Positions 6,387-17,180 of a stretch of DNA of 60,682 nt are shown piece after piece. Under the pieces are notes generated by a model, which had not been told where the DNA came from, made no database searches, and saw only the letters and a program-made list of their open reading frames with translations. A program made the translations under genes and the position numbers. The DNA lies in NCBI GenBank assembly GCA_029549985.1, contig JAKPIB010000027.1:1-60682 (forward strand), given 5' to 3'. Source of the stretch: Bacillota bacterium. GTDB lineage: Bacteria; Bacillota; Clostridia; Caldicoprobacterales; DTU083. How positions within the stretch are numbered: position 1 is the stretch's first letter; each line of letters starts with the position of its first letter.

Positions 6387-6470
6387 ATTTTTAGTGTGTA
6401 TAAACAGATGTTTACATATACTAAGGCAGCTGTCAGGCTGCAATGCAAACTATGAAGGGAGGAACGGGCC

Positions 6471-6578
6471 GTGACTTTGAATTGGACTGTGAAAACCAGA
6501 ATAAGCTTTGCAAAATCACCTAGTGCGTGCTACAACAGCATAACATCCGGCGCGTTCCCGGGTTTGTACATGGAGTAG
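6471..6578 (+). CDS. Candidate 35-codon leader peptide of the ABC exporter operon
   Basis: AAGGGAGG at 6455-6462 stands 8 bases before GTG 6471, and the frame reads 35 codons to TAG 6576-6578. The peptide starts MTLNWTVKTRISFAK, ends SGAFPGLYME, has no obvious domain and is basic near its start. Immediately after the stop come a hairpin and two terminators with matching arms. This placement is what is expected of a ribosome-sensing leader peptide such as the one reported ahead of B. subtilis bmrCD, also a heterodimeric multidrug exporter. No sequence similarity to that peptide is claimed. A competing short frame from ATG 6452 has no ribosome site. Confidence 0.5.
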   Translation: MTLNWTVKTRISFAKSPSACYNSITSGAFPGLYME

Positions 6579-6592
6579 GGCTGTTCACAGCC
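6579..6592 (+). promoter_or_regulatory. Small hairpin overlapping the leader stop codon
   Basis: GGCTGT at 6579-6584 is the exact complement of ACAGCC at 6587-6592. It begins one base after the leader TAG, so a ribosome paused near the end of the leader would cover it. Confidence 0.45.
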
Positions 6593-6611
6593 TGGATACC
6601 TGTCGACGTAT

Positions 6612-6652
6612 ACCATAGGGAATGAGCCATTTGCTAACCTATGGTTTTTTAT
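6612..6652 (+). terminator. Leader terminator 1 of the ABC exporter operon
   Basis: ACCATAGG at 6612-6619 pairs with CCTATGGT at 6638-6645 and is followed by TTTTTT. Its arms have the same sequences as those of terminator 2, so its right arm can also pair with the left arm of terminator 2. Confidence 0.75.
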
Positions 6653-6692
6653 TGTCTATTGCAGGGCAGATATACGCTGTAAAGCAGGGAGG

Positions 6693-6726
6693 ACCATAGG
6701 TAATACTCAGACCTATGGTTTTTTTA
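6693..6726 (+). terminator. Leader terminator 2 of the ABC exporter operon
   Basis: ACCATAGGT at 6693-6701 pairs with ACCTATGGT at 6711-6719 and is followed by seven T. It lies about 70 bases before the first exporter start codon. An AGGGAGG at 6686-6692 just before it has no usable start codon behind it. Confidence 0.78.
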
Positions 6727-11193: not shown

Positions 11194-11229
11194 ATTACAA
11201 ACAAATCAATAAGGAACCTCACTCTTGCA

Positions 11230-11411
11230 GTGAGGTAGAGGCGCGGTGTTTAACAGTCTTTAGCAGAGCGTTGAGGCGTTATGAAGCTATTGAGAAGGAA
11301 ACATCGCCGAAGTGGGCAGTATGCCTCAGGTACTGTCTGCTGGGCCTGTAGTTAAGAGCTGCAGGACTGTCTCAGCAAATGTCCCGGTTTGCTGAGTTGC
11401 GCTATCTCATT
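11230..11411 (+). promoter_or_regulatory. Lysine riboswitch (L box) aptamer
   Basis: P1 is formed by the GTGAGGTAG stretch near 11230-11238 and CTATCTCAT near 11402-11410. Inside it are the conserved L-box core pieces AGAGGCGCGG (11237-11246), ATCGCCGAAGTGG (11303-11315) and GCTGGG (about 11339-11344), in the right order and spacing for the five-helix lysine aptamer. A terminator at 11448 completes an off-switch: lysine binding should favour termination. The genes downstream encode an amino-acid importer, so lysine uptake is the obvious target. Confidence 0.92.
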
Positions 11412-11447
11412 GGGAAGAGGGGGGTTAGGCATATGTGTATGCATGAT

Positions 11448-16530: not shown

Positions 16531-16794
16531 TCTTGTATTCGAGATTATTTTACGGATGCTGTCCTCCGACAGGTGGTACCTGTCTACCAGGTCTCGGATC
16601 CGCAGGCCCTTCAGATACAGGCGGTATATTTCCTGGTTGCGCATCCTGATAAGCTTGCGTGTACCGTTGTTCTCGCCCCAGCCTGCCCTGGAGCTCTCCT
16701 TTTTCGGCACATAGATAAGCTCACCCTGAACGTATTTCTGGATCTCCTTCAAAAGCTCTTCGGGAAGCACATCTCTCCCGTTTTTGTAACCCAA
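16522..16794 (-). CDS. CD3324-family small HTH-like protein
   Basis: A 90-residue protein. The sequence VLPEELLKEIQKYVQGELIY, then GENNGTRKLIRMRN, then RDLVDRYHLSEDSIRKII resembles the CD3324 family: an N-terminal helical part and a C-terminal helix-turn-helix like the Mor activator. DNA binding is probable, targets unknown. The frame is open to TTG 16803, but AAGGAGG (16804-16810) is far better spaced for TTG 16794, giving LGYKNGRD as the start, which also matches the family's beginning. A 43-codon frame with its own strong ribosome site overlaps the start. The gene lies behind a promoter and three tandem terminators, so its expression looks tightly attenuated. Confidence 0.75.
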   Translation of the reverse strand: MGYKNGRDVLPEELLKEIQKYVQGELIYVPKKESSRAGWGENNGTRKLIRMRNQEIYRLYLKGLRIRDLVDRYHLSEDSIRKIISNTRQK

Positions 16795-16852
16795 TGACAA
16801 CAACCTCCTTAATGCATGAAAGGGATATAGCGTTATGAAATCTGTATGTCAT
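16721..16852 (-). CDS. Overlapping 43-codon ORF at the start of the CD3324-type gene
   Basis: ATG 16852 stands 8 bases behind AAGGAGGTG (16861-16869), one of the strongest ribosome sites in the window. The frame reads 43 codons (start MTYRFHNAISLS, end EGDPEIRSG) and overlaps the first 74 bases of the CD3324-type gene in a different frame. The ribosome site of that gene lies inside this ORF. It could be a regulatory ORF whose translation opens or occludes the downstream start, or a chance frame. No homology is recognised. Confidence 0.4.
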   Translation of the reverse strand: MTYRFHNAISLSCIKEVVVIGLQKRERCASRRAFEGDPEIRSG

Positions 16853-16894
16853 CCGGGTAACACCTCCTTCTTTTGAAAAATACAAGGGGTAAGT

Positions 16895-16928
16895 ATAAAA
16901 AAGCCGTGGACAGTTAACCATCCGCGGC
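16895..16928 (-). terminator. Minus-strand leader terminator A
   Basis: Read on the minus strand, GCCGCGGA pairs with TCCACGGC (one mismatch), followed by TTTTTTATA. It is the terminator closest to the CD3324-type gene. Confidence 0.7.
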
Positions 16929-16937
16929 GTTTGGGTA

Positions 16938-16965
16938 CAAAAAAAGCGCAAAACCATACTGCGCT
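16938..16965 (-). terminator. Minus-strand leader terminator B
   Basis: On the minus strand AGCGCA (16965-16960) pairs with TGCGCT (16950-16945), followed by seven T. The arms are identical to those of terminator C. Confidence 0.7.
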
Positions 16966-16970
16966 ATGGC

Positions 16971-16999
16971 AAAATAAAAGCGCAGCAGCCTGTTGCGCT
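16971..16999 (-). terminator. Minus-strand leader terminator C
   Basis: On the minus strand AGCGCA (16999-16994) pairs with TGCGCT (16984-16979), followed by TTTATTTTG. Because its arms match those of terminator B, its right arm can pair with the left arm of B instead. Confidence 0.65.
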
Positions 17000-17059
17000 A
17001 TCCTTGCACGATTATTGCGTTTAAAATAAACAGGCGATGGTTACAGGAATAGCAGCTAT

Positions 17060-17101
17060 TCAGTTGGTAAGATCCCTCCGGTTTGATCTGATAGTGTTCA
17101 C
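17060..17101 (-). CDS. Candidate 13-codon leader peptide
   Basis: On the minus strand AAAGGAG (17116-17110) stands 8 bases before GTG 17101, and the frame reads MNTIRSNRRDLTN then TGA at 17062-17060. It is rich in arginine and asparagine. A small hairpin (GAATAG / CTATTC) overlaps its stop, and terminators C, B and A follow. The order promoter, short ORF, hairpin, tandem terminators is that of a ribosome-controlled attenuator. Confidence 0.42.
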   Translation of the reverse strand: MNTIRSNRRDLTN

Positions 17102-17151
17102 GATCTGCACTCCTTTCACCTTAAATTTGGATATCAAATCCCTTTAGCCAG

Positions 17152-17180
17152 ATTATATCCAGTATTAGGAACAATGTCAA
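17152..17180 (-). promoter_or_regulatory. Consensus SigA promoter on the minus strand
   Basis: On the minus strand TTGACA (17180-17175) and TATAAT (17157-17152) are exactly 17 bases apart, a perfect consensus. It drives the leader with three tandem terminators toward the CD3324-type gene. Confidence 0.85.

Follow-up and report, generated by a model that had tools for sequence, protein, structure and literature searches.

The closest described systems are two leaders of Bacillus subtilis. In the vmlR leader, a ribosome stalled on the uORF prevents formation of an anti-antiterminator, within an arrangement that also comprises an antiterminator, an intrinsic terminator and a translational layer (PMC9226507). 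The bmrB-bmrCD leader combines an ORF, a terminator, an antiterminator and an anti-antiterminator to sense translation-inhibiting antibiotics (PMC4191407). Here we analyzed a 60,682-nucleotide stretch of DNA from a Bacillota bacterium of the Caldicoprobacterales (contig JAKPIB010000027.1), hereafter the window. It contains, before a CD3324-family gene, a long UTR that is conserved in distant Bacillota as a probable genetic sensor: ribosomes on up to three tiny uORFs would control the switching-on of this gene, and in relatives of a ribosome-assembly gene, in response to disturbed protein synthesis. Leader and gene lie on the minus strand, as do all features below unless a plus sign is given; the region is flanked by a divergent gene on the hflK side and by a convergent pair of genes.

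The regulatory region consists of two modules, leader A (17378-17205) upstream of leader B, plus a third reading frame, uORF-C (16852-16721), downstream. A preliminary description of this DNA had drawn the region about 200 nt too short, leaving out leader A and uORF-C and with them two of the uORFs. The predicted fold of the leader, at -107.6 kcal/mol, is better than those of dinucleotide shuffles (z -3.7, 1 of 100). No Rfam 15 covariance model matched it at the gathering cut-off, in the window or in nine relatives, and a relaxed search reached only 21-22 bits where the cut-offs are 56 and 95, with no credible match. Also, we found no published account of such a leader system in the open-licence literature on CD3324, RsgA leaders and uORFs with a Shine-Dalgarno sequence (SD) before the stop. 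On the loci compared, the leader is a regulatory RNA of wide conservation, without an entry in Rfam.

Indeed, about 80 relatives from Paenibacillus, Clostridium and the window's own family keep the design of the leader. Protein searches led to the same family, with 80 named loci that are mostly from Paenibacillus, plus Clostridium tagluense and an uncultured Clostridia contig, and five plasmids carry CD3324. In about 85 loci, from both Bacilli and Clostridia, the uORFs, the terminators and a switch strand that we call Y are retained, with the proviso that these loci are related sequences and their counts are not numbers of independent events. RNA models R1 and R2 find nearly only CD3324 loci, and a third model, R3, was no more sensitive. 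Weak matches of R1 (L170, L171, L173) and R2 (L181), which fall inside or beside ordinary genes, were judged to be due to chance.

Leader B has a perfect TTGACA-17-TATAAT promoter (17180-17152, 12/12 match), as the preliminary description had claimed. The SD-B region, AAGGTGAAAGGAG (17122-17110), provides both the SD of uORF-B and the 5' strand of a predicted anti-antiterminator, P1; it is a conserved block that pairs with Y. The 13-codon frame with a good ribosome site noticed earlier is uORF-B (MNTIRSNRRDLTN, 17101-17060), which begins with GTG, has AAAGGAG 8 nt upstream of its start and carries an internal SD, GGAGGG (17079-17074). A uORF-B with an SD, its translation being predicted, was present in 37 of 38 parsed loci, and in the locus alignments it often ends in GAGGTG-N9-stop. 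Strand Y, TAACCATCGCCTG (17043-17031), has two possible partners, SD-B to form P1 and the loops of the terminators to form the antiterminator. The three hairpins with T-runs claimed earlier are there too, even if a simple hairpin scanner flags only two of them: two copies of terminator T1 with arms AGCGCA/TGCGCT (16999-16971 and, from the hairpin scan and with loop GTATGGTTT, 16965-16938), and T2 (16928-16897, hairpin scan). The loop of the first T1 copy, AACAGGC, can pair with GCCTGTT at Y, and that of T2, GGATGGTTA, is complementary to TAACCATC of Y; GGATGGTT in T2 is kept in most Clostridia loci. Across the alignments, the conserved blocks are SD-B AGGTGAAAGGAG, AACTGAATA, Y AACCRTCACCTGA and T1 as CACGAT-loop-ATCGTG-T7.

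Some of what had been noticed is peculiar to the genus of the window (L001, L002). The hairpin at the stop of uORF-B (AATAG-CTG-CTATT) is seen in this genus only. The same holds for the doubled AGCGCA/TGCGCT hairpin, in place of which other relatives have a single CACGAT..ATCGTG hairpin. The proposed pairing between the middle arms of the two copies is seen in the leader fold of the window, and even dominates it, but it is specific to this genus and not the conserved switch. Elsewhere in the window, the leader of an ABC exporter gene at 6470-6726 (+) contains a leader ORF with a GTG start and a tandem pair of terminators whose arms are identical (CCATAGG/CCTATGG), in the same style as the doubled T1, and it resembles bmrB-bmrCD; a lysine riboswitch (Rfam RF00168, 104.6 bits) lies at 11228-11412 (+), upstream of an amino-acid ABC transporter operon.

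We propose that leader B works by ribosome-mediated transcription attenuation of the vmlR/bmrB kind, and we put the probability of this reading at about 0.62. The predicted parts of an attenuator are in place, with a uORF and its SD upstream of the gene and an intrinsic terminator between the two. By default, SD-B would pair with Y (ACC-R-TCACCTG) as an anti-antiterminator, so that T1 (and T2) would form and transcription would stop. A ribosome on the start of uORF-B would block the pairing of SD-B with ACCRTCACCTG; the freed Y would then capture the terminator's 5' side together with its loop, letting RNA polymerase read through. Such occupancy of the start could come from slow initiation or early elongation, or from a queue behind a ribosome held at the uORF-B stop. 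Whether transcription continues would depend on where the ribosome stands or on how fast it translates, the inducing signal presumably being disturbed translation.

The evidence for the parts, for their conservation and for pairings that exclude one another comes from comparison and folding. P1 is found in compensatory forms (GGTGA/TCACC, GATGA/TCATC, GCTGA/TCAGC), and when partners were swapped between loci, none of 20000 permutations was as good as the own partners for P1 and only 3 of 20000 were for the antiterminator, all loci being treated regardless of their relatedness. In the window itself, own energies of P1 and antiterminator were no better than the swapped means, and three loci (L070, L071, L078) are without a good P1. 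Among 18 loci folded as free RNA, most showed P1 and T1. When the uORF-B start was masked, Y shifted from SD-B to the 5' side of the terminator in about 12 of the 18, before the 3' arm of the terminator is made, and T1 was lost even at equilibrium in four (L005, L006, L021, L024); in about a third, masking the start left Y not freed for the antiterminator. With only the stop masked, P1 persisted in most of them. This difference points to occupation of the start, by one ribosome or by a queue that extends to it, as what would cause readthrough. Together, swap tests and masked folding indicate that antiterminator and anti-antiterminator are mutually exclusive pairings, weakly so in the window. 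The suggestion of attenuation in the preliminary description is thus supported, in a translation-controlled form, by the conservation of uORFs, of terminators and of alternative pairings that change in a compensatory way. That description had also named relatives devoid of promoter and terminators as evidence against it; our comparison brought no such refutation, and a correctly placed T1-type hairpin was found in 85 of 90 CD3324 loci, two of the other five being cut by contig ends.

Leader A opens with a 26-bp dyad, GAAAGAATGTATTTAATTGTTTTTTC (17378-17353), just upstream of a -35 and a putative binding site of CD3324. Its family consensus, GAAAGAATCGTTATAACGATTCTTTC, is kept from Paenibacillus to the family of the window; in 33 aligned loci this centre averages 8.4 complementary pairs out of 13, compared with 3.3 at other centres. 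This aligned test replaced a loose scan for GGAAAG-N-CTTTCC, which did no better than on shuffles. A palindrome search of eight whole genomes, allowing up to 3 mismatches, gave matches at the CD3324 locus only, although such a search misses diverged dyads like the one carried by L143. The dyad is followed by a promoter-like site, TTGAAC-18-TATCAT (17350-17321, 9/12 in a consensus scan), whose position after the dyad is conserved in relatives, and by uORF-A, MIVLIMSEGWSAH (17284-17243), with an internal SD, GGGTGG (17259-17254), before its stop; the R1 match covers it (17327-17190, E 2e-15). The stop codon lies between the arms of a hairpin, GGTCTGC/GCAGACC (17256-17237), that covary in relatives (GGTCTGT/ACAGACC, TCTGC/GCAGA, TTCGC/GCGAA), and the terminator that ends the module, AGGGACGGG/CCCGTCCCT with a short T tail (17231-17205), has stem changes on both sides in relatives as well. 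Within the first ~40 nt of leader A in the Paenibacillus loci, GTAGCCGGCCGGCTAAC before SD-A may resemble the helix near the 3' end of 16S rRNA; RNAalifold pairs GCCRGC with the internal SD.

In two loci, leader A with its dyad and terminator has no CD3324 gene behind it (L143, 1501-1641; L144, 1501-1635), and in genomes G202 and G231 it lies 2.6-2.7 kb from that gene. Because it stands alone in some genomes, P. psychroresistens among them, leader A may be a separate small RNA, with a predicted length of about 110 nt. Leader-A-like RNAs (MITMRWLEV-stop, MITKRWLKG-stop) also occur directly before a CBS-domain gene in L172 and L174, where the CD3324 gene 2.6-2.7 kb away carries another type of leader.

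uORF-A and uORF-B share an internal SD, placed 8-9 nt before the stop codon and about as strong as the one at the start site. In uORF-B the mean energy with the anti-SD of 16S rRNA peaks at -6.6 kcal/mol, with the 3' end 9 nt before the stop, versus -7.1 for the start SD, and 0 of 100 codon shuffles reached the observed mean. In uORF-A the peak is -10.1 at -8 from the stop. Since leader A loci were chosen partly by this very motif, and uORF-B loci by protein and T1, it is uORF-B that gives the unbiased test. All 33 parsed uORF-A have AGG/GGG 14-15 nt before the stop: AGGTGG stands at 14 nt in 23 loci (frame 1) or at 15 nt in ten (frame 0), and nearly the same RNA is read as EVVSA-stop or RWSAL-stop depending on the frame. 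This two-frame reading speaks for the RNA, and not the peptide, as what functions at the terminating ribosome, and selection in uORF-A seems to act on RNA. The peptides of uORF-B also differ widely between clades, while the spacing from SD to stop is constant. With the same placement towards the last sense codon as a start SD has towards the start codon, the internal SD probably keeps a ribosome in place for longer during or after termination. More speculatively, and with clear reservations on our side, this could be a new class of leader, in which the SD before the stop retains, in an initiation-like geometry, a ribosome that is terminating or has just terminated, or else the 30S subunit, so that the RNA would read the state of recycling or of the 30S and not a peptide; it would drive a regulon of CD3324 and RsgA paralogues, leader A being an RNA target that stands by itself.

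uORF-C (MTYRFHNAISLSCIKEVVVIG...) overlaps the start of the CD3324 gene in the +1 frame. The same overlap was found in 42 of the 42 loci where a third uORF could be identified, in 37 of them in the +1 frame. Within CD3324, 35 of 45 loci have a +1-frame stop at the same position, where uniform synonymous codons would give 6.5. Several different amino acids are encoded at this place. The window is an exception, its uORF-C ending 36 nt later. Running out of frame over the start of the gene, uORF-C would add a translational layer. The gene itself (16794-16522) has a conserved SD, AAGGAGG (16810-16804), and a TTG start (16794-16792). Its product had been described as a 90-residue protein of no known function, which is not wholly so: it matches NF040785 over its full length (116 bits, curated cut-off 65) and Pfam Mor PF08765 (28.4 bits, cut-off 24.9), and its AlphaFold model has a confident C-terminal helix-turn-helix (HTH) at a mean pLDDT of 76. 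The best structural matches of this half include Mu C (Z 7.4) and Mor (Z 6.8), although values of Z below 8 are not decisive. CD3324 looks like a Mor/C-type HTH protein, and these matches are consistent with an activator without being a proof of it; it is predicted to bind, probably, the dyad before leader A. The B. subtilis member is what we take to be YraL.

Leader B is found before other genes as well. It precedes RsgA paralogues in C. tagluense (L165), in G300 (L180) and, by eye, in G003 from the window's family (L198, MTALYEVIVS-stop, GAGGTG-N9-TAA), and in G420 a small basic ORF and an ABC-exporter-like ORF (L163, named by eye). The RsgA genes above cut-off with long matches number three in C. 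tagluense, three in G300, two in G003 and one in the genome of the window, and rsgA follows CD3324 in L075 and L078. Such targets, RsgA paralogues and an ABC-exporter-like gene, point to a translation-stress regulon. Slowed translation as the inducing signal, already surmised in the preliminary description, is plausible, and is strengthened by the position of leader B before RsgA paralogues. Also in G003, a leader-B-like RNA (MFVKNIRVVLS-stop; L167, 1501-1698) precedes a small ORF of undefined kind (MMLETNIKMISPPIGELIYDLENYCRQ...). Most distant members of the CD3324 family (L098-L127) carry leaders of other types, also with short uORFs by eye, which suggests that the family is generally under leader control. 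These are several unrelated types with switchable hairpins and uORFs such as MLNPIVFVA-stop, MKFSSARYA-stop or ..HAKP..ILCMG..; the latter leader has CCTTATTT facing the gene SD AAATAAGG, and another shows GTTGGCC/GGCCAACG/CGTTGGCC.

Could the sensor be the peptide itself? uORF-A and uORF-B would then encode drug-dependent stalling peptides of the erm type, read through the Arg-rich uORF-B of the window family or the VVSA-stop/VVFA-stop ends of uORF-A. It is true that uORF-A peptides end alike within each clade (EVVSA-stop, RWSAL-stop) and that several uORF-B peptides hold R-x-R motifs. But a conserved peptide was not found in either uORF, the nucleotides of uORF-A giving different peptides in its two frames and uORF-B varying between clades around an unchanged SD-to-stop spacing, so that we find peptide arrest improbable.

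A switch operated by protein would leave the uORFs a secondary role, with CD3324 or another protein on the leader RNA or the DNA dyad controlling termination or initiation. The strong conserved dyad and the predicted DNA-binding nature of CD3324 speak for it, but a DNA dyad alone cannot account for conserved uORFs, SDs and alternative RNA pairings, and we regard this explanation as quite unlikely. Finally, the hairpins could be chance structures and terminators of neighbouring genes devoid of regulatory role, given that short hairpins are common by chance and that the region separates a divergent gene from a convergent pair. This is hardly credible: the elements sit between a consensus promoter and their own gene, and they are kept, complementary switch strands included, in unrelated gene neighbourhoods.

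Read as a ribosome-operated attenuator, the leader connects the behaviour of ribosomes on tiny ORFs with an uncharacterised family of regulators, CD3324, and with paralogues of RsgA, a GTPase of 30S maturation, and it suggests extra RsgA copies and CD3324 as parts of one response to disturbed translation. The SD before the stop is a searchable mark, and offers a route to ask if bacteria sense termination, recycling or subunit state beyond elongation arrest.

The logic itself is known from vmlR and bmrB; what sets the present system apart is its arrangement in tandem modules, with SDs at a fixed place before the stops and a third uORF that overlaps the gene start, together with the dyad and the target genes. 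Leader B shares with vmlR the uORF, anti-antiterminator, antiterminator, terminator and further translational layer at the gene start, but vmlR has a single three-codon uORF, whereas here there are three longer ones, two with internal SDs before their stops, in tandem modules with a DNA dyad and with CD3324 and RsgA paralogues as targets (PMC9226507). It has the same set of elements as bmrB-bmrCD, and in G420 it also precedes an exporter-like ORF; in bmrB, however, the terminator lies within the leader coding region and the model is slow translation of an ORF on the scale of 54 codons, while here the ribosome would act at the start of a uORF of 13-21 codons, and an SD before the stop is undescribed for bmrB (PMC4191407). 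CD3324 resembles Mor/C of phage Mu in its Pfam Mor score above cut-off, its HTH alignment and the dyad just upstream of a -35, but it differs in that its members are chromosomal proteins of ~90 aa with no match in a phage collection. At the prfB frameshift site, an internal SD acts on the ribosome at a stop codon and, being too close to the P site, leads to +1 frameshifting. The uORFs described here have in common with prfB an internal SD that would act at the stop, but theirs has the spacing of normal initiation, and the uORF simply ends.
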